A stretch of 64,000 bases of DNA from Acidihalobacter ferrooxydans (GTDB lineage Bacteria; Pseudomonadota; Gammaproteobacteria; DSM-5130; Acidihalobacteraceae). Numbering within the stretch: the stretch's first letter is position 1; each line of letters begins with the position of its first letter. Location of the stretch: contig NZ_CP019434.1 of the NCBI RefSeq assembly GCF_001975725.1, forward strand, positions 1,819,486 through 1,883,485, written 5' to 3'. Position numbers and translations under genes: made by a program. The notes under the pieces were generated by a model. It saw only the letters and a list, made by a program, of their open reading frames with translations, had not been told where the DNA came from and ran no database searches. Below, in pieces: positions 12,137-49,825 of this stretch.

Positions 12137-12142
12137 ATTGAG

Positions 12143-14701: not shown

Positions 14702-14825
14702 CAGGGCCCCGCTTTTCGCAGTAACCCGCATCGGTTCGCACGACTCCGAAACTCCCTCATGGTGTCGGCGGCAGTCCATCCGGACACTACACAGCATGTT
14801 AGTTTGACCGAGAGGACCGCCACCA

Positions 14826-16899: not shown

Positions 16900-17327
16900 G
16901 CGACATCCGCATCCAGAAAACCGGCGAGCCGGACATCCTGCACACCAGCGACGGCAGGCTGACCCTGTCCGTGCCGATCCAGATCAAGCGCCGCAGTGGC
17001 CGCAAACTGGTCACCTTGCCAAACGGCGAAACCGCGCCGGTTAGACCGTGGGACGTAGCACCGACCTCCATCCAACTGGCGCTGGCCAGGGGCCACCGTT
17101 GGCTGGCCATGCTGGAATCGGGAGAAGCGAAGTCCTTGAAGGAGATCGCCACGCGGGAAGGAATCGACAACAGCTACGTGAGCCGAATGGTCAACCTGAC
17201 CACGCTGGTGCCCGACATTGTCGCCGCCATCCTCGACGACGTTCTGCCGAACCACATCACGTTGTTCGATCTGGCGGTTGATCCGCCGGCCCTGTGGGAT
17301 GAGCAGCGGGAGAGAGTCGGACTCTGA
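16896..17327 (+). CDS. ParB/KorB-like HTH accessory protein
   Basis: A 143-residue protein. The segment SLKEIATREGIDNSYVSRMVNLTTLVPDIVAAILDD is a ParB/KorB-type HTH. The N-terminal part has beta strands (LTLSVPIQIKRRSGRKLVTLP). It is the last gene of the coupled four-gene module (ATGA overlap with the recombinase). Such genes recur after DUF2924 and recombinase genes; a directionality role is inferred. Confidence 0.75.
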   Translation: MSDIRIQKTGEPDILHTSDGRLTLSVPIQIKRRSGRKLVTLPNGETAPVRPWDVAPTSIQLALARGHRWLAMLESGEAKSLKEIATREGIDNSYVSRMVNLTTLVPDIVAAILDDVLPNHITLFDLAVDPPALWDEQRERVGL

Positions 17328-17342
17328 GGCGGAAACTCCGCC

Positions 17343-17846
17343 TCAGCTCAACATGCTTTTGAGATCCTTGAGCATCAGGAACAGATGGTACGAATCGGTC
17401 GGGCTGGGCTCAAATTCCCAGGATTCGTACCACTGCCGCGCCGCATCATCCTTGGCATGGACCAACAGGCAGCGGATGCCGGCGATGTCGGCGGCCTGTG
17501 CGGTACGCAGCAGCGCATCCTTGAGCAAGGCCTGGCCCAGGCCTTTGCGCTGATGCTCCTTGTCCACGGCGAGCCGGGCCAGGATCATGACCGGCACCGG
17601 GTGGCGCGCCAGCCCCTTCATCACTCTCGACGGCGCGGCTTCCGGATCGACGCTACCAACGGCCAGGCTGTAGAAGCCGACCACCACGTCACCCTGGCAG
17701 CAGACATAGGTCTGCGCGCTGTTGGCCTTCTGGTTGACGAGCGCGTAGCGCTGCAGGAACTGGTTCAGCGCGGCCTGGCCGCAGTCGAACGCATCGACCT
17801 GATCCGTTGCAGCGAGCTTGCGAACGGGTGAGTAGTCATCGCTCAA
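17343..17846 (-). CDS. GNAT acetyltransferase toxin (TacT/AtaT type)
   Basis: A 167-residue GNAT with the acetyl-CoA loop DKEHQRKGLGQALLKDAL and the C-terminal ARQWYESWEFEP. The FDCGQAALNQFLQRYA N-terminus is typical of DUF1778-linked toxins, which acetylate aminoacyl-tRNA and block translation. The start is a TTG at 17846 overlapping the antitoxin stop (TTGA), implying low, coupled synthesis. Convergent with the ParB-like gene. Confidence 0.85.
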   Translation of the reverse strand: MSDDYSPVRKLAATDQVDAFDCGQAALNQFLQRYALVNQKANSAQTYVCCQGDVVVGFYSLAVGSVDPEAAPSRVMKGLARHPVPVMILARLAVDKEHQRKGLGQALLKDALLRTAQAADIAGIRCLLVHAKDDAARQWYESWEFEPSPTDSYHLFLMLKDLKSMLS

Positions 17847-18121
17847 CCTAGCACCCCAGGTTCACGCAGCAACTTCTTCAGACGCGGCTTGCTTTGCACC
17901 GGGCGGTCCAGCGCCTCCTGGAAGGCCTGCCACTGTGTGTCGTCCAGCACGAACTGGCGACGATCCGCCAGTGTCTGCGCAGCAGCCGTCACGCCCGCGT
18001 CGAGCAGGAACTCGCTGACGTTCTTGTGGCAGGCGCGTGCGGCTTCTTGAAGCAGCTGCTTGACCGGCGTGCTGGCACGAACGTCAATGCGTTCGGTCTT
18101 GGAAAGATTCAGGGTGCTCAT
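17843..18121 (-). CDS. DUF1778 (TacA-type) antitoxin
   Basis: A 92-residue ribbon-helix-helix antitoxin (KTERIDVRASTPVKQLLQEAARACHKNVSEFLLDAG) with a C-terminal neutralising tail. It overlaps the toxin by 4 bp. A promoter with an 11-bp palindrome in its spacer lies directly upstream, fitting autorepression. Confidence 0.85.
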   Translation of the reverse strand: MSTLNLSKTERIDVRASTPVKQLLQEAARACHKNVSEFLLDAGVTAAAQTLADRRQFVLDDTQWQAFQEALDRPVQSKPRLKKLLREPGVLG

Positions 18122-18153
18122 GGTGCCCCTCCGGACTGATGTTGGATGCCCTT

Positions 18154-18183
18154 ATTGTAGGCGTCCGGACATTGTCCTGACAA
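18154..18183 (-). promoter_or_regulatory. TA promoter with operator palindrome
   Basis: On the minus strand TTGTCA (18183-18178) and TACAAT (18159-18154) are spaced by 18 bp. The spacer contains the perfect palindrome GGACATTGTCC (18167-18177), the likely antitoxin operator. From 18184 to about 18524 I see no gene; the junction between element and chromosome probably lies here. Confidence 0.6.
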
Positions 18184-18524
18184 GACGTTTCTTGTCTTGG
18201 CCGCCATCCAAGCACGCACTTCCGCGTTGCAATGTGTCGGTAGTGCTCGATAACTACCAACGAAACGCACCCGCAGCGTTTCCTTCGCCACCCAATGCTG
18301 CAATCCAACCGCTTGATTCGTCCGCGCGTAACTCTCTGATCTGTATGGTGCTGACTTATGGCCTTTGCGGACTTCGGGCCAGTTCAAGGGAGCGAGGTCG
18401 GAGCGAGGAATGGCCAGGAGAGAGCGGAATGTGGCCCGGAACGGGCTGGAAGGCTGACCGGTGCCGTCCGCAGGCTTCCGCAGGAACCCCCGCGAACACG
18501 CGGGAACCGGCGCGATCAGGCAAG

Positions 18525-18554
18525 AAAAAACCCCAACCGAGAACGGTTGGGGTT
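18525..18554 (-). terminator. ssrA terminator
   Basis: An 11-bp stem AACCCCAACCG/CGGTTGGGGTT with a 4-base loop. On the minus strand it is followed by TTTTTT (18530-18525). It lies just past the tmRNA 3' end, so it ends ssrA transcription. Confidence 0.9.
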
Positions 18555-18561
18555 TCATTAT

Positions 18562-18924
18562 TGGTGGAGGCGGGGGGAATCGAACCCCCGTCCGCAAGTC
18601 CTCCGCCTTCGGCTCTACATGCTTATTCCGTCTTTGAGTTTAACCGCTCGCTACCCGACGGGCAGGGAAAACGAACGGCGATCCCAGTTGGGTTTTAACG
18701 GATCGGCCCTGGGAGAACGTCACCGCGAGCTTGTGAGAGTCGACGCCTCGAACCTGAGTGCACAAGCACACGTCAGTGAGACGGCACCCTACCGGGTTTT
18801 AAGCGGCGAGTGCGTAGTTGTCGTCGTTGGCAACTATAAGTTTGCAGCAGGGATTTACGAGGTCAGCTACACCCTCGGCATGCACCTCAGGTTTCGCAAC
18901 CCGCGTCGAAGCCAGGTCGCCCCC
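18562..18924 (-). ncRNA. ssrA: transfer-messenger RNA (tmRNA)
   Basis: The 363-nt RNA starts GGGGGCGACC and ends GGTTCGATTCCCCCC..ACCA, with the 3' CCA encoded. The seven-bp acceptor stem has the G3-U70-type pair of alanine tRNA. The tag frame is at 18831-18799 and reads ANDDNYALAA followed by TAA, with GCC as resume codon. It rescues stalled ribosomes and tags the peptide for proteolysis. The gene is intact. The 3' end faces the mobile element, a classic integration target, though no duplicated 3' end is visible here. Confidence 0.97.
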
Positions 18925-36140: not shown

Positions 36141-36157
36141 ATGAAATTTTCGTGCCA
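36141..36157 (-). promoter_or_regulatory. possible sigma-54 promoter of the SQR operon
   Basis: On the minus strand TGGCACG at 36157-36151 is a perfect -24 element. At the -12 position the sequence is TTTC instead of TTGC, so it is imperfect. It lies 76 bp downstream of the palindrome at 36233-36247, a normal enhancer distance. The leader to the SCP2 gene would be about 220 bases. The 35917-36306 gap contains no gene I support. Confidence 0.45.
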
Positions 36158-36306: not shown

Positions 36307-37644
36307 TCAGTCGTTGGGCGGCTGTATATGCATGCGTTGCATCCAGCGCCAGAGCGTACTACGGTCGATGCCAAGATTTTCAGCGGCGCGACTTCGATTC
36401 CATTGCGTTGCCTGCAATGTCGCAAGCAGGCTTTCGCGGTCAATTTGTTCGGTTGGCGATGTGCGGATACTGCTATTGGCCCGCTTGCGAATGTCAACCG
36501 GGAGGCTATCCGGAACTATCTGACCGTTGACGGCGCAAATAACGCCGTGCTCGATAGCATTGATCAATTCACGCACATTGCCGGGCCAGGGGTAATCCAT
36601 CATGAGTTGCAAGGCGTTTGGCGTAACGGTCGGTCGATCAATTTGCAGTCGCAGACACACCTGTTCGATGAAGTGGTCGATCAGCAGCCGGATGTCGGCC
36701 GGGCGTTCGCGTAGTGCCGGCACGCGCAAGGGGATGACGGCCAGGCGGTAATAGAGGTCCGCTCGGAAACGGCCATCCTGGACCATTGTTTTCAAGTCCT
36801 GATTCGAGGCGGCGATAATGCGTATGTCTACTTTAACCGGTCTGTTCGAGCCGACGGGTTCGAACGTCTGGTCCTGGAGTGCGCGGAGCAATTTAGGCTG
36901 CAGCGTAAGGGGAATCTCACCGATTTCGTCGAGGAAAAGGGTGCCGCCGTTGGCTGCCTGAAATCGCCCGATGCGGTCCTTGTGCGCGCCGGTGAAAGAA
37001 CCTTTGATATGCCCGAAAAATTCCGTTTCCAGCAGGCTGTCCGGCACGGCTGCGCAGTTTACTTCCACGAAGGGCATGGTCGAGCGCGTGCTTTTAACGT
37101 GAATCATGCGCGCAATGCGTGTTTTGCCGGTCCCTGATTCACCTTCCAGGAGTACGGGCACGTTGATGGGGGCGACCTGCTCGACGCGCTCGATCAGATT
37201 GAGTGTTTCTATATCGTGCGTAATGAAGGCATTTTCATCGCGATGATTGAAAAAAGCTTCATAGCGACGTTCATGTGTCCGGTCACTGAGGATGAGTACG
37301 CGCAACGGTATGCTGTTTAGCGCACAACGTACGGTCCCGGTTTTGAATTCCACGCAGCGTTCGCCCTGCTCGGTGCGGATGACTTCGCGAAAACTGACGA
37401 AACGGCCGCTCGGGCGGCCGGCGGCATCTGCTTCGCCCTGCTGCAGTGCCGCTTTTAGCGCACTTTTGCCGATGTTGATGCCTCTGATTTCACGCAGCTT
37501 GCGCGGTGCGTCACCCAATTCGAGAAGGCTCAGCGCCGAGGCATTGGTGTAGATCACATCGCCCTCGTCGTTGGCGATGACGACACCTTCCGACAAGTGC
37601 GCCATGGTGGCGACAATGAGGGGGTAGATTTCGTCATTTTGCAT
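36307..37644 (-). CDS. sigma-54-dependent transcriptional activator
   Basis: A 445-residue NtrC-type activator. An N-terminal PAS-like sensor occupies about residues 10-75. AAA+ motifs are Walker A GESGTGKT (168-175), the sigma-54 contact loop GSFTGA (215-220; the usual form is GAFTGA), Walker B LFLDE (236-240) and R-finger region FRADLYYRL. A Fis-type HTH ends it (NRSRAAENLGIDRSTLWRWMQRM). The start at 37644 has CAGGGG upstream. The gene sits between two operons that share a palindrome, so it is probably their activator. The signal is unknown; sulfide or sulfur is an inference. Confidence 0.9.
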   Translation of the reverse strand: MQNDEIYPLIVATMAHLSEGVVIANDEGDVIYTNASALSLLELGDAPRKLREIRGINIGKSALKAALQQGEADAAGRPSGRFVSFREVIRTEQGERCVEFKTGTVRCALNSIPLRVLILSDRTHERRYEAFFNHRDENAFITHDIETLNLIERVEQVAPINVPVLLEGESGTGKTRIARMIHVKSTRSTMPFVEVNCAAVPDSLLETEFFGHIKGSFTGAHKDRIGRFQAANGGTLFLDEIGEIPLTLQPKLLRALQDQTFEPVGSNRPVKVDIRIIAASNQDLKTMVQDGRFRADLYYRLAVIPLRVPALRERPADIRLLIDHFIEQVCLRLQIDRPTVTPNALQLMMDYPWPGNVRELINAIEHGVICAVNGQIVPDSLPVDIRKRANSSIRTSPTEQIDRESLLATLQATQWNRSRAAENLGIDRSTLWRWMQRMHIQPPND

Positions 37645-37861
37645 GGATTCCATACCCCTGACTATGAACAAGAAGCATTCGCTGTGCCTGCGCAGGTTTG
37701 GATTTGAAGCCTACAGGAAGCGTTTTCCCAAGTCTGACGAGACCGCGCTGGTGACGAGCCCGGTGATCGCAAAAGTCCTCTACATAATTTCGTATTGTTT
37801 ATTCCAACACTATTTTGTGCAGGAAGTAAATTATTTCGGGGAAAATGTTGTTGTAGGTGTT

Positions 37862-37892
37862 GTTGCAGTGTTGCGATGTTGCGCAATGCAAC
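37862..37892 (+). promoter_or_regulatory. phased GTTGC enhancer sites
   Basis: GTTGC starts at 37862, 37870 and 37878, exactly 8 bp apart. The last forms the palindrome GTTGCGCAATGCAAC (37878-37892). The group lies 45 bp upstream of the -24 element, a plausible binding site for the sigma-54 activator. Confidence 0.65.
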
Positions 37893-37936
37893 ACTCTTGA
37901 AAACATAAAAATCAGTAAAAACAGTGCTTTACAGAA

Positions 37937-37952
37937 TGGCATAGTGGTTGCT
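37937..37952 (+). promoter_or_regulatory. sigma-54 promoter of the RND/globule operon
   Basis: TGGCATAGTGGTTGCT has GG and GC separated by exactly 10 bp and matches the TGGCAC-N5-TTGCW consensus at nearly all positions. A start site near 37963 would leave a 24-base leader before the GTG of the adaptor gene. The rest of 37645-37986 is the divergent spacer. Confidence 0.75.
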
Positions 37953-37986
37953 ACTTGTTAAAGAAAGCACTCAGGAGCCTTGCAAC

Positions 37987-39171
37987 GTGAGCCGACATTT
38001 ATCCCGTTATGCCGCTATTCCCACGCTGCTCAAGCGTGCGATTCCCATGATGCTGCTGGCATCCCTGGCCTGTGCTCAGCCGGCACTCGCGTCGCCGGGA
38101 ATTTATAAAGTCAAGGAAATGCAGGGCGTGGGTTCAACGTTGGGTGGCTACGTGATCCCGCGTTACGAAGTGACCTTGAGCGCGCAGGCGCCCGGTCGGG
38201 TCAGTTTCGTACTCGGCGGAGCAGGTACACCGGTGACGCAGGACAGCGTGCTGGTCAGACTAGGGGAGGCCGGGCTTCTGGCCAAGCGCGCGGAAGCGGT
38301 CGCAAGTTTTTATTCGGCTCAGGCCGCATGGCAGAACAGCATCGATCAGTACGGCTATCAACTGCGTCAGTACAACCCGATGTCGTCATGGATGAATCCT
38401 TTTGCCTGGGGCGGGCAGGGTATGGCGACCCTGTTGGGCCGCGGAGTGTCCAGCCCGATGGCCAGTTACGCGGCCGGCGTAGCCAATCGCGCGGCGGATC
38501 AGACGATCGCTCGCGCCAAACTGGAAAGCGCCCGTGCACGTATTCATCAGATCGATGCGGCGTTGCGCGATACGGTGTCGGTGGCGCCTTTCAATGGCGT
38601 TGTTCTGAGTAAAAATGTCAACGTCGGCGACAGCGTGCAGCCGGGGCAACCGCTGATGACCATCGCCAGCGGCGGTGCTCGCCAGGTCGAGTTACGGGTG
38701 CCCGATGCCATGGCGGCACAGCTGCGTGTCGGGCAGGCGTTGTGGGTGAACCTGTCCGGCGTCAGTAGCGCGATTGCCGGCACAGTCGCTGAGATCGATC
38801 CACAGGCCGATCCGCGTACCCATACCGTTACCTTGAAGCTTGATTTGCCGACCGATGTCTCGCCACGGCTCGGTAGTTACGCGCAAGTGGTATTCCCATC
38901 GCATGATCGTTACGCGCAGGTACCTGTGGTGCCGATGAGCGCTCTTTTGCCAGGGCATTCGCTGCCCTCGGTGCTGGTGATCAAGAACGGACACAGCCAG
39001 TTGCGGGTATTGCGCCTGGGTGAGGAACTCCAGGGTGGATTGGTGCAGGTGCTGGCGGGCTTGCATGCGGGCGAAACGGTCATCGTTTCGCCGCCGCCCG
39101 GTGCGGCAGCCGGCTACATGCCTCCGACATCTTCCGGGAAAGCAGCGGGCGGCGCGGAGCCGGTCAAATGA
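37987..39171 (+). CDS. RND periplasmic adaptor (membrane fusion protein)
   Basis: A protein of about 394 residues with signal peptide (PMMLLASLACAQPALA). The adaptor core is split by a Met/Trp/Gly insert (around NPMSSWMNPFAWGGQGMATLLGRG) in the alpha-hairpin. The lipoyl/barrel part (APFNGVVLSKNVNVGDSVQPGQPLMTIASGG) follows. GTG at 37987 has AGGAG upstream, just after the sigma-54 promoter. It overlaps the RND pump by ATGA. No outer-membrane factor is in the operon. Confidence 0.85.
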   Translation: MSRHLSRYAAIPTLLKRAIPMMLLASLACAQPALASPGIYKVKEMQGVGSTLGGYVIPRYEVTLSAQAPGRVSFVLGGAGTPVTQDSVLVRLGEAGLLAKRAEAVASFYSAQAAWQNSIDQYGYQLRQYNPMSSWMNPFAWGGQGMATLLGRGVSSPMASYAAGVANRAADQTIARAKLESARARIHQIDAALRDTVSVAPFNGVVLSKNVNVGDSVQPGQPLMTIASGGARQVELRVPDAMAAQLRVGQALWVNLSGVSSAIAGTVAEIDPQADPRTHTVTLKLDLPTDVSPRLGSYAQVVFPSHDRYAQVPVVPMSALLPGHSLPSVLVIKNGHSQLRVLRLGEELQGGLVQVLAGLHAGETVIVSPPPGAAAGYMPPTSSGKAAGGAEPVK

Positions 39172-42100
39172 GTGGCGATGAAAAAACAACAATGACCGGT
39201 GGCGGGGACGCGACCGGAGCCGAAACAACCGAACGTCAGCACGGCAAACTGGGGTTGGCTGGAAATCTGGCCAGGCAGTTCATCGGTTCGCCGCTCACGC
39301 CGCTGTTGTTGTTTGCCTTTCTTGCAGCCGGTTTCCTGGGCTTGATTCTCACGCCTCGGCAGGAAAATCCGCAAATTTCAGTGCCGATGGTGGATATCTT
39401 TGTGTCCTACCCCGGCAATTCGCCGGCGGAAGTGGCCCGCATGGTCACCGATCCACTGCAGCGCATCATGAGCGAGATCACCGACGTCAAGCACGTCTAT
39501 TCGGTGTCGCAACGTGGGCAGTCAATGGTGACCGTGCGTTTCAAGGTCGGCCAATCGCTCGGCCCGTCGCTGGTGAAAGTCTACGACAAGCTGGCCTCGA
39601 ACATGAATGCGATTCCGCCGGGTGCCAGCCAGCCGCTGATCCGGCCGAAAGGTATTAACGACGTACCCGTGGTGACATTCACGCTGTGGTCGAAGAGCGT
39701 CGGCGAGGCCACTCTGGGCGAGATCGCGCGTGAAGTGCTGCAGCGCGTCAAGGAGGTGCCTGATACCGGACAGAGCTTCATCGTCAGCGGTCCGCGCGAC
39801 GTGTTGTCGATCGATGTCGAGCCCGACCGGCTGGCCGCGTACGGTCTGACCCCGCAGCAGGTGGCTGGCGTGATCCGCTCGGCCAACACTCAGATCGAAA
39901 CCGGCCGCACTGACTGGAACGGTAAGAGTCTGAAAGTCATCTCCGGTGGTTTCCTGCGCTCGCCCAACGAGGTCTCCAATCTGATCGTCGGGGTCTACAA
40001 GGGCCAGCCTGTGTATCTGTCGCAGATCGCACACATCAAATACGGCGCCGGCGAGACACATAGCCAGGTGCAGTACTACACGGGGCCGGCCAGCCATGAC
40101 CCCAATGTCGCGGCGCAAGGGCTGCAGGCGGTTACGGTGGCAGTCGCCAAGAAAGCCGGCAGCAACGGTGTCAGCGTGGCCTATGCCGCGATTCACAAGG
40201 TCGAATCGCTCAAGGGATCGGTGATTCCGAGCAACGTTCATGTCAGCGTCACGCGCAATTACGGCAAAACCGCCAATGACAAAGTCAATGAACTGATCTT
40301 CAAGCTGTTCGAGGCGACCATCGTGGTTTCGCTGCTGGTGCTGGTGGCGCTCGGCTGGCGGGCCGCTCTGGTGGTGCTGATCGTGATTCCGACGGTCATC
40401 CTGATAACCATTTTCGCGGCTTTGCTGATGCACTTCAGCATCAACCGCGTCAGCCTGTTTGCGTTCATTTTTGCCATCGGCATTCTGGTCGACGACACCA
40501 TCGTGGTCGTCGAAAACGCTTATCGGCGCTGGCTCAAGGAAGGCGAAACTTCGGACTTCACGCTGATCGACGCGGTTCGCGAGGTCGGCAACCCGACCGT
40601 GCTCGCCACCTTTACCGTGATTGCCGCCCTGCTGCCGATGGCATTCGTGCGCGGCATGATGGGGCCATACATGGCGCCGATTCCCGTACTCGGTTCGGTG
40701 GCCATGCTGTTCTCCCTGTTTGCGGCCTTCGTGTTCACGCCATGGCTGATTCTGCGCTTCAAGCCAAACCTCAAGACACTGGAGCGGATGGAGGCGCGAG
40801 AGCATCGCCAGGCGCGGCGGCTGCACGGCTTTTTCTCACGCCTGATCGTGCCACTGGTCGAACACCGTTGGCGTGGCCGATTGGTGCTGTTGCTCATCGT
40901 CGTGGCCTTTTTTGCCAGCGCATCCCTGATGCTGTTCAAGTTTGTGCCGTTCAAAATGCTGCCGAACGACAACTCGTCCACATTCAGTGTCGTGGTCAAC
41001 ATGCCTGCCGGCACGGCGCTGCCGGTAACCGCCAATGTCACCCACGAAATGACTGAAGCGTTACGCAAGATTCCCGAAGTGACCGCCTTGCAGACGTATG
41101 TCGGCACGGCCGAACCGTTCAGCTTCAACGGCATGGTGCGTCACTATTATCTGCGCAGCGAACCCTGGCAGGCGCAGATTCACGTCGAGCTGGTCGGCAA
41201 GCACGAGCGGAGCCTGACCAGCAATCAGATAACCATTCGGGCGCGCACGCTGATCGAGCCCATCGCCAAGGCGCACGATGCACGCATCGTGGTGGCGGAA
41301 ACACCGCCGGGGCCACCTGTGCAGGCGCCCGTCGTGGCGGAAATTTACGGCCCGAGCGCTGGCGTGCGCGATGCTGTTGCACGCCAGGTGACGGCTTATT
41401 TCGATTCGGCGAAAAACCTGACCGATGTGGGCAATACACTGGAAGCTCCACACGATGTCTGGCGCTTTCACCTCGACCGGATCAAGGCAGGCCTGGCCGG
41501 GGTGCAGGCCAGTGCGGTGAACAAGGCGCTCAGCCTGGTCATGGGGCAACACCAGATTGGCGATTTCAAACCGCTCGGCCAGATTCAGGAAGTGCCGATC
41601 GAACTTCAGGCGCCGCTAGGCACGCGCAGCAACGTCTATTCGCTGGCGCAGTTGCCGATTCCCTCGACCCAGGGCGGGACAGTGCCGCTGTACGAACTCG
41701 GGTCCTTCCGCCTGCAACCCGCCCAGCAGCCGATCTACCAGCAGGATCTGCGTCCGGTAACGTACGTGACCGCCGATGTGCAGGGCCGGTTGTCCGCGCC
41801 CCTGTATGGCATGCTTGAAGTCGATCAATCGCTGCAGCACTACACCCCACCCGGTGGCAAGCCGCTGTCGGTCAACTGGCTCAGCGAGCCGACGAGCACC
41901 GCACATGCCACGCTGAAGTGGGGTGGCGCGTGGACCGTCACTTACGAGACCTTCCTTGACATGGGCATCGCCTTTGCCGTCGCGCTGGTGCTGATCTACA
42001 TGCTGGTGGTTTGGGAGTTCGGCAATTTTGTGCTCCCGGCCATCATCATGGCGCCGATCCCGCTTACCCTGATTGGCATCCTGCCCGGTCACTGGCTGCT

Positions 42101-43010
42101 GCACGCGGACTTTACCGCCACCTCGATGATCGGTTTCATCGCGCTGGCAGGCATCATCGTGCGCAATTCCATTCTGCTGGTGGATTATTCCCAACATCGC
42201 GTGGCCGAAGGCATGCCGGTACTCGATGCGCTTGTCGACGCCTGTGCCGCGCGTACCCGGCCCATTGTCATTACTGCGATGGCGTTGGCTGCCAGTTCAT
42301 ATTTCATTATCAGCGCGCCGATCTTCCAGGGCATGGGTATTTCGTTGCTGTTCGGCGTCATCGTTTCGACGGTGCTGACGCTTCTGGTTATTCCGTTAGG
42401 CTGTGTTACTGGTCGTGCCGCCCTGTGCCCGGCCAGCATCGGGCCGAATGGTGCTCCCGTGGCATGTCCGCCGGTCATTGAATCCGAGGCTCTCAAGGAG
42501 GAGGCACAGGCGGCGCACACAAGGCAGTCGTCGGAGTCGTCGGCCGATGATGAGGTCAAGCCCGCGGACGCAGGCGCACGCGAGCCCGCAGCCGGCTTGC
42601 AGGACGAGACCTCATCCGACGCAACATCCACCGACGATGCGTCGGATGCCTCCCGCAGTTCGGCGCAAAGCGCGGCGCAGGCAGCCGCCGACGCACCAGC
42701 GGCTGAGCCGCCCGCGCCGGACACTGCTTCGACCGGCACGGAGTCAGTCGCCCCCCCGAGTGATCCTCCGACTGTCGAGTCGCCAGCTACAGACCCCGAC
42801 GCTGAGGCATCGCCACCTGCTGCGGCCAAGCCGAAAGCAGCGCCCAAACGAACGAAAAAGCCTGCTACCACCAAGGCGAAAAAACCCTCAGCCAAGTCCG
42901 CGTCGGCTGCCAGGACACCGCGAAAGACATCGCGAAAAACACCGGTAAAACCGAAGCCGCGTGGAATTCGCATAAAACAACCTAAACTTAAAGACAAGCC
43001 AGAGGAGTGA
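39168..43010 (+). CDS. RND transporter with a C-terminal charged tail
   Basis: A 1280-residue AcrB/HAE1-like permease, two-thirds of the usual plus a tail. Membrane core motifs include GILVDDTIVVVENAYRRW (TM4 acidic pair) and the second repeat GIIVRNSILLVDYS. The final membrane helix ends near residue 1077. Residues about 1080-1280 are a disordered-looking tail, first acidic Ser/Ala/Thr/Pro-rich, then Lys/Pro/Arg-rich like histone H1. It may bind other complex members or nucleic acid-like polyanion. It exports an unknown substrate with the adaptor. The tail is very unusual. Confidence 0.85.
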   Translation: MSGDEKTTMTGGGDATGAETTERQHGKLGLAGNLARQFIGSPLTPLLLFAFLAAGFLGLILTPRQENPQISVPMVDIFVSYPGNSPAEVARMVTDPLQRIMSEITDVKHVYSVSQRGQSMVTVRFKVGQSLGPSLVKVYDKLASNMNAIPPGASQPLIRPKGINDVPVVTFTLWSKSVGEATLGEIAREVLQRVKEVPDTGQSFIVSGPRDVLSIDVEPDRLAAYGLTPQQVAGVIRSANTQIETGRTDWNGKSLKVISGGFLRSPNEVSNLIVGVYKGQPVYLSQIAHIKYGAGETHSQVQYYTGPASHDPNVAAQGLQAVTVAVAKKAGSNGVSVAYAAIHKVESLKGSVIPSNVHVSVTRNYGKTANDKVNELIFKLFEATIVVSLLVLVALGWRAALVVLIVIPTVILITIFAALLMHFSINRVSLFAFIFAIGILVDDTIVVVENAYRRWLKEGETSDFTLIDAVREVGNPTVLATFTVIAALLPMAFVRGMMGPYMAPIPVLGSVAMLFSLFAAFVFTPWLILRFKPNLKTLERMEAREHRQARRLHGFFSRLIVPLVEHRWRGRLVLLLIVVAFFASASLMLFKFVPFKMLPNDNSSTFSVVVNMPAGTALPVTANVTHEMTEALRKIPEVTALQTYVGTAEPFSFNGMVRHYYLRSEPWQAQIHVELVGKHERSLTSNQITIRARTLIEPIAKAHDARIVVAETPPGPPVQAPVVAEIYGPSAGVRDAVARQVTAYFDSAKNLTDVGNTLEAPHDVWRFHLDRIKAGLAGVQASAVNKALSLVMGQHQIGDFKPLGQIQEVPIELQAPLGTRSNVYSLAQLPIPSTQGGTVPLYELGSFRLQPAQQPIYQQDLRPVTYVTADVQGRLSAPLYGMLEVDQSLQHYTPPGGKPLSVNWLSEPTSTAHATLKWGGAWTVTYETFLDMGIAFAVALVLIYMLVVWEFGNFVLPAIIMAPIPLTLIGILPGHWLLHADFTATSMIGFIALAGIIVRNSILLVDYSQHRVAEGMPVLDALVDACAARTRPIVITAMALAASSYFIISAPIFQGMGISLLFGVIVSTVLTLLVIPLGCVTGRAALCPASIGPNGAPVACPPVIESEALKEEAQAAHTRQSSESSADDEVKPADAGAREPAAGLQDETSSDATSTDDASDASRSSAQSAAQAAADAPAAEPPAPDTASTGTESVAPPSDPPTVESPATDPDAEASPPAAAKPKAAPKRTKKPATTKAKKPSAKSASAARTPRKTSRKTPVKPKPRGIRIKQPKLKDKPEE

Positions 43011-43014
43011 ATGC

Positions 43015-44514
43015 ATGATGTATCAAAAACGACTGGTCAATCCGAACTCCCTGCGTCTGGCCGTGCTGCTCGGACTTGGCCTGCTGACCCCCGGCCTGGC
43101 CATGGCGGCAGGTACCGCGTCCGCCGCGCCCACCTCACCCTACAACGCGTATGTACCGCCACCGCCGGGACCTTACGGGGGTGGGAGCGGCATGCCGTAC
43201 CCGCCGGGTATGCAAAGCGGGAGTGCGCAACCGGGGTCAGCACCACAGCAGACGGAAACGCCGCCTTCCAATCAATACGCCCCTCGTGCTTACCCGACCC
43301 CGAATAATCACGGGCAGAGTTCGCAGACCCCGGCACCGCAGTGGCGTCCGACGCCGCCGTCCTATGACGGGCGGGGCTGGCGTGGTACGCCGCCGACGCC
43401 GCCGCAGGCTCCTGCTGCGCCGCAGTGGCATGGCATGCCCGCGCCCGCGATGCCGGCCGCGCCGCAGTGGCGTCCGACCCCACCGCAGGCTCCCACGCCG
43501 CCGACTTATGACGGGCGGGGCTGGCGTGGTACGCCGCCGACGCCGCCGCAGGCTCCTGCTGCACCGCAGTGGCATGGCATGCCCGCGCCCGCGATGCCGG
43601 CCGCGCCGCAGTGGCGTCCGACCCCACCGCAGGCACCCAAGCCGCCGTCCTATGACGGGCGGGGCTGGCGTGGTACGCCGCCGACGCCGCCGCAGGCTCC
43701 TGCTGCACCGCAGTGGCATGGCATGCCCGCGCCCGCGATGCCGGCCGCGCCGCAGTGGCGTCCGACGCCGCCGCAGGCACCCAAGCCGCCGTCCTATGAC
43801 GAACGGGGCTGGCGCGGTACGCCGCCGACGCCACCGCAGGCTCCTGCTGCGCCGCAGTGGCATGGCATGCCCGCGCCCGCGATGCCGGCCGCGCCGCAGT
43901 GGCGTCCGACGCCGCCGCAGGCTCCCACGCCCCCCCCCTATTGGCAGCCGAGGGCGCAACCGGGGCAACCGGAAGCGCCTTCCGCAACACAGCAAAAGGG
44001 CGGCAGCGGGTCTAACGATGCCGCTGGACAGTCATCCTCATCAGATGCCAAGCAGGCGCAATCCTCAACGTCGCGTCCGGGATATCCCGCACCGGCCGAA
44101 TACCGGTCGCATATGCCACGGCCGTATTACGGCATGCCGTATCCGCCGGCGATGGCTGATCGGCCGAACATGCCACGGCCTTACTACGGACGGCCGTATT
44201 CGCCCTATCCGGCGACAGCCGCTTACGGGGCGAACATGCCGCGGCCTTACTACGGACGGCCGTATTCGCCCTATCCGGCGCCCGCCGCTTACGGGCCGAA
44301 CATGCCGCGGCCTTACTACGGCCAACCGTATCCGCCGCGAGTCTGGTCCGGCATGCCGCGGTACGGTTACGTACCCGCTGCATATCGCATGCTACCCGGC
44401 TCAAATCCCTGGGCCGGGCGGCAGCCGGAATGGTCTGCGGCGTACCCACAGGGCGTCTCGGGCCCCGGGCCGTACGCCTATGCCCGTTCGGCATACGGCT
44501 GGCCACGGTTCTGA
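43015..44514 (+). CDS. Pro-rich secreted protein with 48-residue repeats
   Basis: A 499-residue protein with signal peptide (LRLAVLLGLGLLTPGLAMAAG). Four nearly identical 48-residue repeats (43363-43938) are rich in Pro, Ala, Trp, with the pattern WRGTPPTPPQAP and PQWHGMPAPAMPA. Three 22-residue C-terminal repeats begin NMPRPYYG. It resembles no family I know; it is probably an extracellular or periplasmic matrix protein with WxP/YYG motifs that may coat a surface. GAGGAG precedes the ATG. It is the third gene of the operon. Confidence 0.75.
   Translation: MMYQKRLVNPNSLRLAVLLGLGLLTPGLAMAAGTASAAPTSPYNAYVPPPPGPYGGGSGMPYPPGMQSGSAQPGSAPQQTETPPSNQYAPRAYPTPNNHGQSSQTPAPQWRPTPPSYDGRGWRGTPPTPPQAPAAPQWHGMPAPAMPAAPQWRPTPPQAPTPPTYDGRGWRGTPPTPPQAPAAPQWHGMPAPAMPAAPQWRPTPPQAPKPPSYDGRGWRGTPPTPPQAPAAPQWHGMPAPAMPAAPQWRPTPPQAPKPPSYDERGWRGTPPTPPQAPAAPQWHGMPAPAMPAAPQWRPTPPQAPTPPPYWQPRAQPGQPEAPSATQQKGGSGSNDAAGQSSSSDAKQAQSSTSRPGYPAPAEYRSHMPRPYYGMPYPPAMADRPNMPRPYYGRPYSPYPATAAYGANMPRPYYGRPYSPYPAPAAYGPNMPRPYYGQPYPPRVWSGMPRYGYVPAAYRMLPGSNPWAGRQPEWSAAYPQGVSGPGPYAYARSAYGWPRF
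43363..43938 (+). repeat. 4 x 144-bp in-frame tandem repeat
   Basis: Unit starts at 43363, 43507, 43651 and 43795. A partial fifth begins at 43939. Copies differ mainly at synonymous or single codons. Recent expansion by slippage or recombination is likely. Confidence 0.9.
44167..44345 (+). repeat. 66-bp tandem repeat
   Basis: Starts at 44167, 44233 and 44299; each copy encodes NMPRPYYG plus Pro/Ala/Tyr. The third copy diverges at its end. Confidence 0.8.
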
Positions 44515-44539
44515 ACCGGATATTCGAAATATCCCGGTT
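44514..44539. repeat. intergenic hairpin after the Pro-rich gene
   Basis: AACCGGATATT and AATATCCCGGTT form an imperfect stem with a single-base bulge, followed by TTCC. It may limit read-through to the globule-like genes or protect the mRNA. Confidence 0.45.
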
Positions 44540-44602
44540 TCCCCGCCTCGGGATATTGATATGACAAGGGGATGGCGCATGGAGTGAAAGGAGGTGTTTC
44601 GT

Positions 44603-45049
44603 ATGCATAAGCGTAAAGCGGTCAAGGCATTCGTGTTGACGGCCGCCGTCGGCCTGACGGCACTGCCGTTGAGTTCGGCCTTCGCCTTCGGTCCCTGGGG
44701 CGGAGGCCCCTGGTCCGGTTGGGGCGGCGCGCCCTGGTCAAACATGGGCAGTGGTCCCTGGAGCGGCTACGGTGGTCCCTGGAGCGGCTATGGTGGTCCG
44801 TGGTCCGGCTATGGCGGTCCGTGGAAGGGCGATAGCGGCCCCTGGAACATGGGCGGCATGAACATGAGGTTCCCCTCTGGCGGCCCGATGAGCTGGAGCG
44901 GTGGCCCCTGGTCGAATTACGGTGGTCCTTGGTCCGGCTTCGGTGGTCCGTGGTCCGGCTTCGGTGGGCCCATGTCGGGCTTCGGCAGTCCGTGGTCTGG
45001 CTTCGGAAGCCCGATGCCGGGATGGGGTGGCCCTTGGAGCTGGTGGTAA
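44603..45049 (+). CDS. sulfur-globule-like Gly/Trp/Pro protein 1
   Basis: A protein of about 148 residues with a signal peptide (AFVLTAAVGLTALPLSSAFA). The mature part repeats GGPWSGYGGPWSGY/GFGGPWSG and holds GGMNMRFPSGG. This pattern, with very strong Gly/Trp/Pro bias, resembles sulfur globule envelope proteins of purple sulfur bacteria. AAGGAGG 8 bases before the ATG gives a very strong ribosome-binding site, so high expression is expected. Next to the sqr locus it may coat sulfur. Assignment is by composition, not homology search. Confidence 0.65.
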   Translation: MHKRKAVKAFVLTAAVGLTALPLSSAFAFGPWGGGPWSGWGGAPWSNMGSGPWSGYGGPWSGYGGPWSGYGGPWKGDSGPWNMGGMNMRFPSGGPMSWSGGPWSNYGGPWSGFGGPWSGFGGPMSGFGSPWSGFGSPMPGWGGPWSWW

Positions 45050-45082
45050 ACCGGCGTTCCGTCCACTGCGGATGTCGGAGTT

Positions 45083-45108
45083 CGATTCGTATGTACGATT
45101 CGTATGTA
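45083..45108 (+). repeat. 13-bp exact tandem duplication
   Basis: CGATTCGTATGTA occurs twice in succession, followed by TAACAG. It lies 34 bp before the second globule-like gene and may be a regulatory duplication. Confidence 0.6.
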
Positions 45109-45141
45109 TAACAGCAACACACTATGCCAATGGAGGCAAAC

Positions 45142-45714
45142 ATGAAAAGGATTCAAATGTGTAATACGTCAAGGCACCCGCGCCTGAAGAAAACCCTGCT
45201 GGCAGCGGCCCTCGGCCTGGCTGGCCTGGGTCTGGCCGGCGCCAGCTATGCCTGGGGACCGGGCGGCTGGGGCGGCGGTCCGTGGGACAGCTACGGTGGC
45301 CCGATGTCGGGTTACGGCGGTCCCTGGTCCGGCTATGGTGGCCCGATGACCGGTAACAGCGGTCCGTGGAACATGGGCAACTTCAACATGAACGGCCCCA
45401 AGGGCGGGCCGATGACCTGGCGAGGCGGTCCGTGGAACGGCTATGGCGGGCCTATGTCGGAGTACGGTGGCCCGTGGTCTGGCTACGGTGGGCCAATGTC
45501 CGGCTACGGCTATGGCGGCAACGGTTATGGCTATGGCTATGGTGGTTACCCGGGGTACGGTTACGGCGGCGGTTACCCGGGGTACGGTTACGGCGGCGGT
45601 TATCCGGGGTACGGTTACAATCCGTACCAGTCTCATGGCTACCCGGGCTACGGACATGCGCCGCAGCAGCGGCCACAAGGTCCGGCGCCGCAGTCAAATA
45701 CGTCGAACCACTAA
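45142..45714 (+). CDS. sulfur-globule-like Gly/Tyr/Trp protein 2
   Basis: A protein of about 190 residues with a signal peptide (LLAAALGLAGLGLAGASYA). The N-terminal mature half repeats GGPMSGYGGPWSGY; the second half is Gly/Tyr-rich (GYGYGGYPGYGYGGGYPGYGYG) with a Pro/Gln tail. The GYGY tail and GPW motifs match sulfur globule family proteins better than protein 1. GGAGG precedes the ATG at 45142. A paralogue of the preceding gene; they may form a heteropolymer. Confidence 0.65.
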   Translation: MKRIQMCNTSRHPRLKKTLLAAALGLAGLGLAGASYAWGPGGWGGGPWDSYGGPMSGYGGPWSGYGGPMTGNSGPWNMGNFNMNGPKGGPMTWRGGPWNGYGGPMSEYGGPWSGYGGPMSGYGYGGNGYGYGYGGYPGYGYGGGYPGYGYGGGYPGYGYNPYQSHGYPGYGHAPQQRPQGPAPQSNTSNH

Positions 45715-45727
45715 GACGCCGGGATGC

Positions 45728-45791
45728 AAAGGGGCGCAGGAATGCGCCTCTTTCCCGGATACAGGCGAAGGGGCACAGGAATGTGTCCCTT
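45728..45791 (+). repeat. twin hairpins with GGAA tetraloops
   Basis: Two hairpins 40 nt apart, 45728-45753 (11-bp stem) and 45768-45791 (10-bp stem), each closed by GGAA, a GNRA tetraloop. The second is directly followed by TCCT and the ParA ribosome-binding site. They may control expression of the downstream genes or be mRNA processing sites. Confidence 0.65.
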
Positions 45792-45814
45792 TCCTGCACA
45801 CATGGAGGCATGGC

Positions 45815-46432
45815 ATGCGCGTGTTGGTTGCGTCGATGAAGGGCGGATCGGGCAAGAGTACAGTGGCATTCAATCTTGCCGTGTGGCTGGCCTATCGCGT
45901 CGAGCATCTGCAATTGCTCGATCTGGATCCACAGGCCACGCTCAGCGATGTCTGCGAATTGCGTGAAGAACTCGAATATCAACCCCGGCTGCGGTGCCTG
46001 TCCGCACTGCCGAAGCAGGGTATGAAGCCGGCGTCCTATGCGATCTGCGACACCAGTTTCAGCCAGCCGAAAGCCTTGCGAGCCGCATTGGCCTCGGCCG
46101 ACATGACGCTATTGCCGGTCGGCCCCAGTCAATCGGATGTCTGGTCGGCACAGCGCTACCTCGAATCGATCAGAGATACGACCTCCATGCCAATCAAGGC
46201 CTTCATCAATCGCGCCGACACACATCATGCGATCAGGGAATCAGACCAGGCAGAAGAGGCATTGTGCCAACTCGAAGGTCTGGAAGTGCTGGATGTGCGA
46301 CTGCATCAGCGCACGGCCTATCGGCGCTCCCTAAGCGAGGGCCTGGCGGTATTTGAACTGCAGCCAAGCAGCAAGGCGGCTCTGGAAATCGAAGCCCTTG
46401 CAAACTGCCTGTTCCCGGATTTGTCGGCATGA
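45815..46432 (+). CDS. ParA/MinD-family ATPase
   Basis: A 205-residue small ParA. Deviant Walker A is KGGSGKST (near residue 9), Walker A' is LLDLDPQAT, and Walker B AICDT. It lacks an N-terminal HTH and no ParB is adjacent. Such orphans position cargo such as carboxysomes or chemoreceptor arrays. GGAGG precedes the ATG at 45815. Embedded among globule-like and membrane proteins, it may position sulfur or export complexes (inference). Confidence 0.88.
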   Translation: MRVLVASMKGGSGKSTVAFNLAVWLAYRVEHLQLLDLDPQATLSDVCELREELEYQPRLRCLSALPKQGMKPASYAICDTSFSQPKALRAALASADMTLLPVGPSQSDVWSAQRYLESIRDTTSMPIKAFINRADTHHAIRESDQAEEALCQLEGLEVLDVRLHQRTAYRRSLSEGLAVFELQPSSKAALEIEALANCLFPDLSA

Positions 46433-46489
46433 TGCCGGCAGACATTCAACCCACGTACGGCATCTAATGATTAGCCGGAGCAAGAAACT

Positions 46490-47626
46490 ATGAAATTCAT
46501 CAAAGGACTGTTACGCCATCCGATCATGCTCACTCTGGTCATCTGCCTGATCGGCCTGGAGATTTATCTGGCTTTCATTCAGACGAACACAGTTCGGAAA
46601 GAACAACGGATCGCTCACGAGAAAGCACAAACGCTCAGCCAGACCACGGCACCGGCAACGACCACGGCACCGGCAACGACCACGGCACCGGCAGCGACCA
46701 CGGCTCCGGCAGCGACCACGGCTCCGGCAGCGACCACGGCTCCGGCAGCGACCACGGCTCCGGCAGCGACCACGGCTCCGGCAGCGACCACGGCTCCGGC
46801 AGCGACCACGGCACCGGCGACGACCACGGCTCCGTCAGCGCGCACGACTGTACCCAGCGATGCAGCGCTGCTGATGAGCGCTCGCAAGGCTTTCTGGATG
46901 CGCGATATCAAGGCAGCGGAAGCCGATTACCGCACTCTGATTGCACGCGAGCCGAATGACCCCTCATTGCACGGCGAACTCGGCAACGTGCTGTTCATGG
47001 CCGGCGAGCGTGCCGCCGCAGGGGAACAATATGCGACGGCTGCCGAGGGTTTTGTCAAAAAAGGCGATCTGCGTCGCGCGCAGGCCCTGCTGCCCGCCGT
47101 AGCCGAATTGGCACCGCAAAAGCTGGATGCCTTGCGCAGCGCCTTGATGTCACGGTTCGCGTCCATGGCGCCAGCACAGACGCAATCCTCTGCTGCGCCT
47201 GCGGCTGAACCCGCTCATAAATCACCGACCGGTGCTGCGCCGGCGACGACCCCCAGCAAGCCCGCAGTTGAACCCAAGCCGCTGGATCAGGCACAGCTCA
47301 GGCTGCTCATGCAGGCGCGCAAGGCTTTTTGGGAGCACGATCTGAAATCGGCCGAGGCAGACTATCGCAAGCTGATCGCCGAGGTGCCACAGGCCCCGGC
47401 GCCGTATGGCGAACTGGGCAACGTACTGCTGGTATCCGGCAAGAGGGCCGCTGCCGCCAAGGCGTATGCTCAGGCAGGCGATGCGCTGCTTGCGCTCGGT
47501 CGCAAGCGTGAGGCGGCAGAGCTGCTGCCTCTGTTGGGCCGGCTCGATCCGGCGCGGGCACAGGCGCTCGCCACCCGGCTGCATGACGCCGGCGCGCAGC
47601 AACCGAGGCAGGGCGGTGGCGCATGA
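46490..47626 (+). CDS. membrane-anchored TPR-like protein
   Basis: A 378-residue protein with one N-terminal membrane helix (IMLTLVICLIGLEIYLAFI), a Thr/Ala/Pro linker of 11 six-residue repeats and two homologous helical modules (about 122-220 and 265-370; both contain ARKAFW..D-K-AEADYR-LIA and GELGNVL..G-RAAA). Each module is TPR-like. The internal duplication suggests a scaffold. It overlaps the next gene by ATGA. Confidence 0.7.
   Translation: MKFIKGLLRHPIMLTLVICLIGLEIYLAFIQTNTVRKEQRIAHEKAQTLSQTTAPATTTAPATTTAPAATTAPAATTAPAATTAPAATTAPAATTAPAATTAPAATTAPATTTAPSARTTVPSDAALLMSARKAFWMRDIKAAEADYRTLIAREPNDPSLHGELGNVLFMAGERAAAGEQYATAAEGFVKKGDLRRAQALLPAVAELAPQKLDALRSALMSRFASMAPAQTQSSAAPAAEPAHKSPTGAAPATTPSKPAVEPKPLDQAQLRLLMQARKAFWEHDLKSAEADYRKLIAEVPQAPAPYGELGNVLLVSGKRAAAAKAYAQAGDALLALGRKREAAELLPLLGRLDPARAQALATRLHDAGAQQPRQGGGA
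46643..46840 (+). repeat. 11 x 18-bp tandem repeat
   Basis: Units of 18 bp (ACCACGGCWCCGGCRRCG pattern) begin at 46643 and every 18 bp to 46823, encoding the TTAPAA/TTAPAT linker. Copies are nearly identical. Confidence 0.9.
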
Positions 47627-48252
47627 GCGACCAGCGGCGGCAGCCAGATATCGATCCGGAAGACTATGGCGAGGCGATCGGGAAAGGTTTGGGAGATGAT
47701 GTTCGCGCGTATATCGAAAGCTTAGAACGAAGATTATGGATCATCGTGATCCCCTTCATGCTCGCTTTCCTCCTGCTCGCCGCCTACGGGTTTTATCTGA
47801 TCTTCACACTGAGCAAGGACATGCATTCCATGGCGACACAAATGGTCGCCATGAGTCCTAATGTGCAGCGCAATATGAACAGCATGGCTGTCAAAATGGA
47901 TAGTATGTCAGCCAACATGGGGCATATGGCCAAGACCATGAATCAGATGTCAACAAAACTCGACACGATGAACGGCGAGATGCGGCGCATGACGCAGGCA
48001 ACCAGCTACATGGCCTGGGCCACGGCGCAGATACAGGCGGATATGTGGAGTATGAATCAAAACATCTCGACGCCATTGTCAGCAATGAACTCGATGTTGC
48101 CCTGGGGTAACAATCAGGGACCGTATCCGGGTCCGCGTGCACCGCTTGCGCCGCCAACCAATATCGGTCCGTATCCGGGGCAGGCCTATATGGGGCATCA
48201 TTATGCACCCCCTTCAGGCCCGGCAAAGTCGGGCTACCGACCGCCTTCCTGA
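47623..48252 (+). CDS. membrane protein with Met-rich coiled coil
   Basis: A 209-residue protein with one membrane helix (about 38-61) followed by roughly 90 residues with 20 Met (MHSMATQMVAMSPNV..), predicted coiled coil, then a Pro/Gly/Tyr-rich tail like that of the globule-like proteins. Met at coiled-coil positions may bind metal or sulfur. Coupled to the TPR gene by ATGA and followed by the GTPase gene 13 bp later. No family recognised. Confidence 0.65.
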   Translation: MSDQRRQPDIDPEDYGEAIGKGLGDDVRAYIESLERRLWIIVIPFMLAFLLLAAYGFYLIFTLSKDMHSMATQMVAMSPNVQRNMNSMAVKMDSMSANMGHMAKTMNQMSTKLDTMNGEMRRMTQATSYMAWATAQIQADMWSMNQNISTPLSAMNSMLPWGNNQGPYPGPRAPLAPPTNIGPYPGQAYMGHHYAPPSGPAKSGYRPPS

Positions 48253-48265
48253 TTAAGGAGACTGC

Positions 48266-49825
48266 ATGTTCACGTCGCAAGCATCACGTGCTCGCAAAAC
48301 CCGCCTGGAACAGCTCAAGCAGCGCCTGGCTCAGGAGCACCCGGAGTTGGGTGGTCTGGTGGAACAGTATGCCGAACTGGATCGTATCGCCCGGCGCACG
48401 GGTTTGTTCGGCGCCGGGCAGAGCCATGCCTGGTCAATCGCCTGGTGGCCAGTCGTGCCGGTGCTCGGCACGTTCTCAAGCGGCAAGTCAACCTTCATCA
48501 ACGGCCTGCTTGGCAAGGCAGTGCAGCGCACCGGCAATCAGGCCGTAGACGACCATTTCACCGTGCTGGCCTATGCCGGAGGTGGTCGCGAGCAGCGCTT
48601 ACCCGGCATCGCGCTCGATGCCGATCCGCGTCTGCCGTTCTACGGTGTCAGTGAACGCATTCTGGAGCTTGAGGGCGGGCGTCGCGGCGAAGCATCGCCG
48701 GTCAACAGTTATCTGCAGATGCAAACCGTTGCCAATCCGCTGCTCAAGCACCTCCTGCTGGTTGATTCGCCCGGCTTCGACGCAGACCAGAGCCGCGCGA
48801 CCGTGCTGCGTCTGACCGATCACATCATCGAACTGGCCGACCTCGTGCTGGTGTTTTTCGATGCCCGGCATCCGGAACCCGGCGCAATGCAGGAAACGCT
48901 CGAACACCTGGTCTCCGGTGTGCGCGAACGCCACGATGCGGACAAGTTTCTGTTCGTCCTCAATCAGATCGACGTGACGGCAGCGGAGGACAATCTCGAC
49001 GAGGTGGTCGCCGCCTGGCAACGTGCGCTGGTTCAGCATGGCATGGGTGGACATCGTTTCTTTTGTCTATATTCCGAAGAGGCCGCGCGTCTGCCCGATG
49101 ATCCGGCAATGCACAGGCGTTATACGGCACGGCGCGAGCGCGACCTGAGTGAAATCACGCAACGCCTCGAACTGCTGGGTACGGAGCGCAGCTATCGGTT
49201 GATCGCGCACCTCGACGAGTTGACGCGACGGATGGAAAACGAGGTGGTGCCTGTCCTGCAACGCGCCAGACGACGCTGGACACGCGGTGTGATTACGGGT
49301 GATGTACTGATTTACGCGGCGCTCATTGCGGCGGTGTATTTCAGTGGTCTACTCACGCCCGACCTTGCCGCTGGCGGCTTGCGCGTGGCTTGGTTCGGGG
49401 TCATCAATGCGCACAGTCCGGCGCATGTGCTGGGTATAGCCGCGGGGGTACTGGTGGTGGTTGTGCTCGGCGTGCATTACGGCCTGCGTCGCTGGCTGGC
49501 CGATCTCATGGCACGGCGGGTGCCCGTCGAGGGCGAGCAGGGGTATCGCCTGCGCCAGGCGTTCCTGCGTAGCACGCGTTTCTGGCGCGGCATGGCGGCG
49601 TCGCCCGTTGCCGGTTGGGGCAAAGGTATGCAACGGCGTCTGACAACAATCCGGGAGAACTGTTCGATCCTGGTGCGAACGTTGAATGATCTGCATACAC
49701 GGCCCGGCGCTGGTGCTGCGGATGCACCGGAACCGTCACTGGCTGCGCAGCCGCAAGAGAACGCCGGGCATGCGGACGGGAAGACGGCTGAAACCCCGGC
49801 GGTTAAGCCTGCGGTGCATGAGTAA
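48266..49825 (+). CDS. dynamin-like GTPase with two membrane segments
   Basis: A 519-residue protein of the bacterial dynamin/DLP group. G1 is GTFSSGKST, G3 is LLVDSPGFD and G4 is NQID. Two membrane segments (about 345-363 and 388-406) follow the GTPase and helical middle (EDLSEITQRLELLG..). The C-terminal tail is Ala/Pro-rich. Such GTPases remodel or fuse membranes. In this operon it could shape membrane around a sulfur or export compartment. Start has AAGGAG upstream. Confidence 0.85.
   Translation: MFTSQASRARKTRLEQLKQRLAQEHPELGGLVEQYAELDRIARRTGLFGAGQSHAWSIAWWPVVPVLGTFSSGKSTFINGLLGKAVQRTGNQAVDDHFTVLAYAGGGREQRLPGIALDADPRLPFYGVSERILELEGGRRGEASPVNSYLQMQTVANPLLKHLLLVDSPGFDADQSRATVLRLTDHIIELADLVLVFFDARHPEPGAMQETLEHLVSGVRERHDADKFLFVLNQIDVTAAEDNLDEVVAAWQRALVQHGMGGHRFFCLYSEEAARLPDDPAMHRRYTARRERDLSEITQRLELLGTERSYRLIAHLDELTRRMENEVVPVLQRARRRWTRGVITGDVLIYAALIAAVYFSGLLTPDLAAGGLRVAWFGVINAHSPAHVLGIAAGVLVVVVLGVHYGLRRWLADLMARRVPVEGEQGYRLRQAFLRSTRFWRGMAASPVAGWGKGMQRRLTTIRENCSILVRTLNDLHTRPGAGAADAPEPSLAAQPQENAGHADGKTAETPAVKPAVHE

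Follow-up and report, generated by a model that had tools for sequence, protein, structure and literature searches.

As an energy store, sulfur globules are of major importance to sulfur bacteria and symbionts, and research on them has dealt mainly with their coat proteins. SgpA, SgpB and SgpC of Allochromatium vinosum (Pfam family PF17228) are small, secreted, paralogous repeat proteins rich in glycine and aromatic residues. SgpD (Alvin_2515) of the same organism is a secreted, proline-patterned protein that was located on globules by mCherry fusion, is induced 28-fold by sulfide and is encoded next to a hydrophobe/amphiphile exporter (HAE) (PMC10386293); it has been reported almost only from Chromatiaceae. 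Here we analysed a stretch of 64,000 nucleotides from Acidihalobacter ferrooxydans (the window) that encodes two proteins, A and B, in a conserved operon. It appears likely that both are divergent globule-coat proteins, and that the genes around them encode a candidate machine which builds globules or sets their position.

Protein A (148 aa, 44603..45049, plus strand) and protein B (190 aa, 45142..45714, plus strand) share a signal peptide, a WGGGPW head, GGPWSGYGG repeats and a Met-rich centre, and protein B has a GYGYGGYPGYG tail. The open reading frame of A starts with the ATG at 44603, with AAAGGAGGTG just upstream, and its stop codon ends at 45049. That of B starts with the ATG at 45142, preceded by GGAGG, and its stop codon ends at 45714; a second in-frame ATG lies at 45124. 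Sequence and hydropathy of both N-termini revealed a basic N-region, then a hydrophobic segment and a cleavage-like site (LSSAFA/FGPW in A and GASYA/WGP in B). Alignment of A with B gave 76% identity over 70 aa with an E value of 1e-30, which is inflated by the repetitiveness of the proteins. Both also contain the non-repeat centre SGPWNMG-NM-P-GGPM-W, and this shared element supports a common origin. Judged by their sequences, A and B are paralogues. Signal peptides, good ribosome-binding sites, repeat units and pairing are therefore as the first-pass annotation had described them.

In the Acidihalobacter metagenome-assembled genome G001, orthologues of A and B occur in the same gene order and are 66% and 64% identical, respectively. 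For A, comparison with the G001 orthologue gave a dN/dS of 0.14, while synonymous sites were saturated for B (dN 0.32). This comparison identifies A and B as real genes that are conserved in the sister genome under purifying selection. Only these two genes of their type were found in the A. ferrooxydans genome.

Proteins A and B are rich in Gly, Trp, Tyr and Phe, repetitive and of secreted type. As a functional kind, Sgps are small Gly/aromatic-rich repetitive proteins with a Sec signal peptide, usually present as paralogues, and A and B show all of these properties. Pfam and NCBIfam searches gave no family match for either protein. The profile search against sulfur globule families that the first-pass annotation had proposed, once run, yielded no PF17228 match at E<=10 for A, B or their G001 orthologues. 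Since composition alone leaves the case open, we examined the gene context.

A and B are encoded within a run of same-strand genes (37948-49825) with short gaps or overlaps, which extends from an RND adaptor through a dynamin. The conserved gene order is membrane-fusion protein, RND exporter, Pro-rich secreted protein, Sgp slot, ParF-type ParA, TPR protein, transmembrane coiled-coil protein (cc) and EHD-like dynamin. The HlyD/RND periplasmic adaptor (37948..39171, plus strand; TIGR01730 E 2e-40, Pfam HlyD families) probably has its true start at a GTG near 37987. It is followed by an RND inner-membrane exporter of the AcrB/HAE type (39168..43010, plus strand; PF00873 E 3e-142) and by a secreted Pro-rich repeat protein (43015..44514, plus strand) with PPPPGPY near its mature N-terminus, which occupies the position of PPPGP[YF] proteins in relatives. 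About four near-identical tandem copies (WRGTPPTPPQAPAAPQWHGMPAPAMPAAPQWRPTPPQAP) were observed at 43240-43930 of this gene, and their number may depend on the assembly. Like SgpD, the 43015 protein is secreted, Pro-rich and encoded beside an HAE/RND exporter, a likeness drawn from the published description of SgpD and not from its sequence. We regard this protein and its PPPGP counterparts as a lead to SgpD-like proteins by position.

The ParA-family ATPase of ParF type (45815..46432, plus strand; PF01656 E 2.7e-16) carries the deviant Walker A motif KGGSGKST. KGG-GKST, with the signature lysine, is invariant in the alignment of the family. This protein scored E 4.7e-37 with ParA_partition, under the cut-off of that family, and matched the ParF structure 4dzz in a PDB search (E 2.6e-7). 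A ParF-type ATPase with deviant Walker A beside candidate inclusion-coat genes recalls ParF/ParG plasmid partition and the McdAB system of carboxysomes. The downstream TPR protein (46490..47626, plus strand; PF14559 E 6.7e-6, above the cut-off) has an N-terminal transmembrane helix and a long APATT linker; tandem APATT/APAAT repeats at 46650-46850 form this linker between the membrane helix and the TPR domains. The cc protein (47623..48252, plus strand) was delineated by family alignment and hydropathy, and is predicted to have a short cytoplasmic N-terminus, one transmembrane segment near the N-terminus, a long helix and a P/G-rich tail. AlphaFold models residues 15-147 as a single helix, with low confidence overall (mean pLDDT 61). 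From the charge distribution, a periplasmic orientation is suggested for the TPR and cc domains, and for the TPR domains it is probable. By gene order and topology, cc is a candidate adaptor between ParA and its cargo. In contrast to ParA-type cargo positioning as described elsewhere, the adaptor here would be a coiled coil that spans the membrane, and it would have to reach a periplasmic cargo on the far side of the inner membrane.

The last gene of the run encodes an EHD-like GTPase/ATPase of the dynamin superfamily (48266..49825, plus strand; PF00350 E 2.8e-15, above the cut-off) with two predicted membrane segments. It shares the dynamin GTPase fold with EHD ATPases, BDLP, IniA and DynA, and PDB profile matches pointed to EHD4 and EHD2 as the closest solved structures. 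Its AlphaFold model (mean pLDDT 73.6) matched the EHD4 fold with a Z score of 20.7 (343 aligned residues, rmsd 5.4), so that both the GTPase domain and the helical fold of EHD-like proteins were found. Unlike EHD ATPases, it has no EH domain, has the two predicted membrane segments and is encoded in a bacterial operon. SUP05 bacteria, which store sulfur, have been stated to be without dynamin. Among open-licence full texts, literature linking sulfur globules to ParA, dynamin or partition held no description of this operon.

A search of relatives with cc as the query revealed the same arrangement in many gammaproteobacteria. In six of these loci (L033, L031, L034, L038, L041 and L044), a small secreted protein of the classic sulfur globule type is encoded upstream of ParA; in those loci that showed RND as well as ParA, it lies between the two. 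Slot proteins scored above the PF17228 cut-off in L033, L031, L059, L065 (Magnetovibrio blakemorei) and L115, and exactly at the cut-off in L041. When named genomes were scanned with the dynamin alignment, 524 stretches were confirmed, and the best 80 came mostly from sulfur oxidisers. Among these 80 of 524 were loci of Thiothrix, Sedimenticola, Cocleimonas, Leucothrix, Thiofilum, Thiohalomonas, Thioalkalivibrio, Hydrogenovibrio and clam symbionts, and of the alphaproteobacterial Magnetovibrio, Rhodospirillaceae and Rhodobacteraceae. The operon order is conserved in Thiothrix, Sedimenticola, Magnetovibrio, Thioalkalivibrio, Cocleimonas, Leucothrix and Thiofilum. At least three other operon parts were present in 49 of the best 80 of 524 dynamin loci. 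RND and ParA could both be placed in 39 of the best 80 loci, and between them a strict Sgp-like ORF was found in 13, a PPPGP[YF] secreted protein in 13 and a DUF4412-type protein in 13. A few further slot ORFs match only the profile built from in-operon Sgps. Two further genes are present in many relatives (L033 4812-5594, L034 8690-9277), one for a secreted protein of the DUF4412 type ahead of ParA and one for a DUF302 protein close to cc; neither was seen in the operon of the window.

The association of cc with known Sgps was then counted in an even sample of 369 genomes from across the Gammaproteobacteria. PF17228 was present in 45 of the 82 genomes with cc versus 3 of the 287 without (odds ratio 115, Fisher P=2e-31), and dsrA in 57 of the 66 genomes with cc at E<1e-30 versus 61 of the other 303 (odds ratio 25, P=2e-24); these odds ratios and P values count genomes as independent and ignore shared ancestry. 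Nine pairs of PF17228 and cc genes, from 8 families, lay within 12 kb of each other, and in all nine the Sgp gene was on the same strand as cc and upstream of it; chance alone would give about 0.7 neighbours of this kind. We consider it likely that sulfur globules are what the operon serves in the organisms that carry it. Four genomes (G226, G319, G071 and G189) contained cc and PF17228 but no dsrA over the cut-off, some of these assemblies being incomplete or fragmented; they suggest that globule genes occur without rDsr elsewhere too.

These counts bear on a rival view, in which A and B would be structural or envelope-stress proteins of an ordinary glycine-rich kind, without a sulfur role, and the operon a membrane-stress system which is common in sulfur oxidisers by chance. 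Dynamin and RND systems frequently have a role in membrane stress, and both the missing Pfam and NCBIfam matches and the lack of dsrA in A. ferrooxydans would fit. The odds ratio for PF17228 with cc, the invariant upstream placement on the same strand, and the head motif and centre that A and B have in common with Sgps argue against this explanation, and we consider it quite improbable.

The resemblance of A and B to the slot proteins could be assessed directly. PF17228 also misses the Sgp-like proteins encoded within the operon in L034 and L129, which fall below its cut-off and are Sgp-like by the in-operon profile; the negative PF17228 result for A and B is thus not decisive. A simple residue shuffle of A that kept the signal peptide once outscored the real protein, and a stricter, dipeptide-preserving shuffle was therefore used instead. 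We compared each protein with 300 such shuffles using the in-operon Sgp profile. The mature part of B scored 99.8 bits against a shuffle mean of 67.7 (sd 5.1, best 88.4; z 6.3), and full-length A scored 70.7 bits against 53.8 (sd 5.1, best 69.1; z 3.3), with none of the 300 shuffles as good in either case. The mature part of A alone was weakly above its shuffles (z 2.4, 5 of 300 as good). The fit to in-operon Sgps hence exceeds that of dipeptide shuffles, clearly for B and moderately for A, and the similarity beyond composition that had been called for is present.

Further likenesses were found in the arrangement of the proteins. A signal-peptide junction followed by WG..GGPW occurred in 9 of the 3,339 ORFs of related loci, and all 9 were Sgp-slot genes; A and B have the same head after their junction. 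In the alignment, GPWNMGGMNMRFPSGG, the Met-rich centre of both proteins, sits over the Sgp centre (GDFSMNFSGRGSG). A and B are encoded where known Sgps are, in the slot from RND to ParA. Head, Met-rich centre and operon slot are thus those of in-operon PF17228 relatives, and it is through these relatives, not through the A. vinosum sequences themselves, that we liken A and B to SgpA, SgpB and SgpC as small secreted paralogous Gly/aromatic-rich repeat proteins. In contrast to Sgps, the repeats are GGPWSGYGG and not of the N/G-Y type, and no GYG and AP tail is present at the C-terminus of A. A and B also differ from PF17228 Sgps in failing the profile. With the same slot, head motif and centre and no PF17228 match, we call A and B Sgp-like and not PF17228 members. 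The sulfur globule reading of the first-pass annotation, which was said to rest on composition, accordingly gains the slot of genuine PF17228 proteins, the head motif and a profile fit above shuffles, and loses family membership. In our view A and B are probably divergent proteins of the globule-coat type, and their features point to a coat function in A. ferrooxydans.

As secreted surface or matrix proteins, A and B might also wrap sulfur outside the cell or at a mineral surface, with the RND system exporting hydrophobic sulfur species, so that the operon would handle extracellular sulfur. The operon holds a complete RND exporter with adaptor, Ectothiorhodospiraceae are said to deposit sulfur outside and to be without Sgps (PMC8877833), and A. 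ferrooxydans V8 oxidises iron and sulfur minerals (PMC5477407). Against this, neither an outer-membrane channel nor a surface-sorting signal was found in the operon, periplasmic globules are what the studied members of the PF17228 family coat, and this family supplies proteins to the same slot, and ParA and dynamin are proteins of the cytoplasmic side. An extracellular role is therefore unlikely.

From the observed genes, their order and conservation, we infer how such an operon could work, including the cargo of the RND pump and a regulation by sulfur. Sec would export A and B to the periplasm, where their Gly/aromatic repeats are predicted to coat zero-valent sulfur. The operon would also supply a second secreted, Pro-rich protein, the RND exporter and a membrane-associated machine. 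As cc crosses the inner membrane, it could link the coated periplasmic globule to cytoplasmic ParA, which might space or partition globules along the nucleoid, and, as the globule grows, the EHD-like dynamin might shape the invagination of the inner membrane that surrounds it. Gene order, topology and the known behaviour of their families suggest a role of ParA, cc and dynamin in positioning or enclosing globules, and we give this an even chance. The wider reading, in which the operon is an undescribed trans-envelope system that builds, positions and passes on sulfur globules in sulfur oxidisers of at least two proteobacterial classes, could equally prove right or wrong. In such a system the ParF-type ATPase and the EHD-like dynamin would work from the cytoplasm and act, via cc and the periplasmic TPR protein, on a protein-coated periplasmic inclusion.

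A and B could also be a globule coat while ParA, cc and dynamin do something else, for example in division, or in organising chromosome and membrane where inclusions distend the cell. In the Thiotrichales loci of some carriers, cc or dynamin is present but no recognisable Sgp occupies the slot, and 13 of the best 80 of 524 dynamin loci had no other operon part (L069, L070, L075, L081, L084, L087, L094, L097, L102, L104, L112, L119 and L120), among them Nitrosomonas communis (L075) and a Pseudohongiella metagenome-assembled genome. Such close homologues indicate that the dynamin may also have uses outside the operon. However, PF17228 genes near cc are always upstream on the same strand, and in Thiotrichales the slot is still filled, by a PPPGP secreted protein alone. 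We regard a separate function of the three proteins as possible but doubtful.

Divergent from the operon we found a sigma-54 enhancer-binding regulator (36307..37671, minus strand; Pfam Sigma54_activat E 8.7e-68, HTH_8 E 3.8e-12) with a weak PAS-like N-terminus, an AAA+ domain and a Fis HTH. An inverted repeat, AGTGTTGC-N13-GCAACACT (37867..37895, plus strand), read directly in the sequence, is a candidate enhancer site for this activator. Downstream lies a candidate -24/-12 promoter of the sigma-54 type, TGGCATAGTGGTTGCT (37937..37952, plus strand), with one mismatch to the consensus and both invariant dinucleotides correctly spaced. The sigma-54 activator would thus probably turn the operon on in A. 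ferrooxydans. Among 31 loci, only the window and Thioalkalivibrio ALMg11 (L122) have a similar site upstream of the operon, so that this promoter is lineage-specific at best and was ruled out as a general feature of the operon. A scan for sigma-70 promoters and terminators gave nothing above chance.

On the first-pass annotation's reading, if correct, sulfur storage would lie beside sqr. This gene lies at 34148 on the opposite strand, about 9 kb from A and B; a search of 97 related loci found no homologue of sqr, and in the sister genome G001 sqr is on a different contig from the operon. A conserved linkage was therefore ruled out. The long non-coding stretch between sqr and the regulator contains a sigma-54-like site with one mismatch and without the -12 GC (36142-36157, minus strand), about 0.66 kb upstream of sqr. 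The sqr/RND operon of Azospira suillum, the deletion of which left sulfide oxidation unimpaired, was rejected as a counterpart because its gene set differs (PMC5358917).

The A. ferrooxydans genome comprises 3,448,835 bp in one contig; the record of strain V8 is CP019434, and four gaps have been stated for it (PMC5477407). Elsewhere in the window (1340-18924), a tmRNA gene (18562-18924, minus strand) lies beside a large-serine-recombinase-like gene (15544-16899) and phage- or plasmid-like genes, probably an element integrated at tmRNA. The rDsr system consumes globule sulfur in most carriers of the operon, but a dsrA search of the A. ferrooxydans genome found none above the cut-off, although cc is present. 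SoxAX, SoxB and SoxYZ were reported to be absent and SOR to be present in V8 (PMC5477407), and our analysis confirmed SOR. In these respects A. ferrooxydans is unlike typical globule formers, and we found no report of globules in V8 in the open-licence literature.

The locus described here suggests that an acidophilic mineral leacher may store sulfur although it has neither Dsr nor Sox. By joining coat genes to ParA, cc and dynamin, the conserved operon offers testable candidates for the building and placing of sulfur stores.
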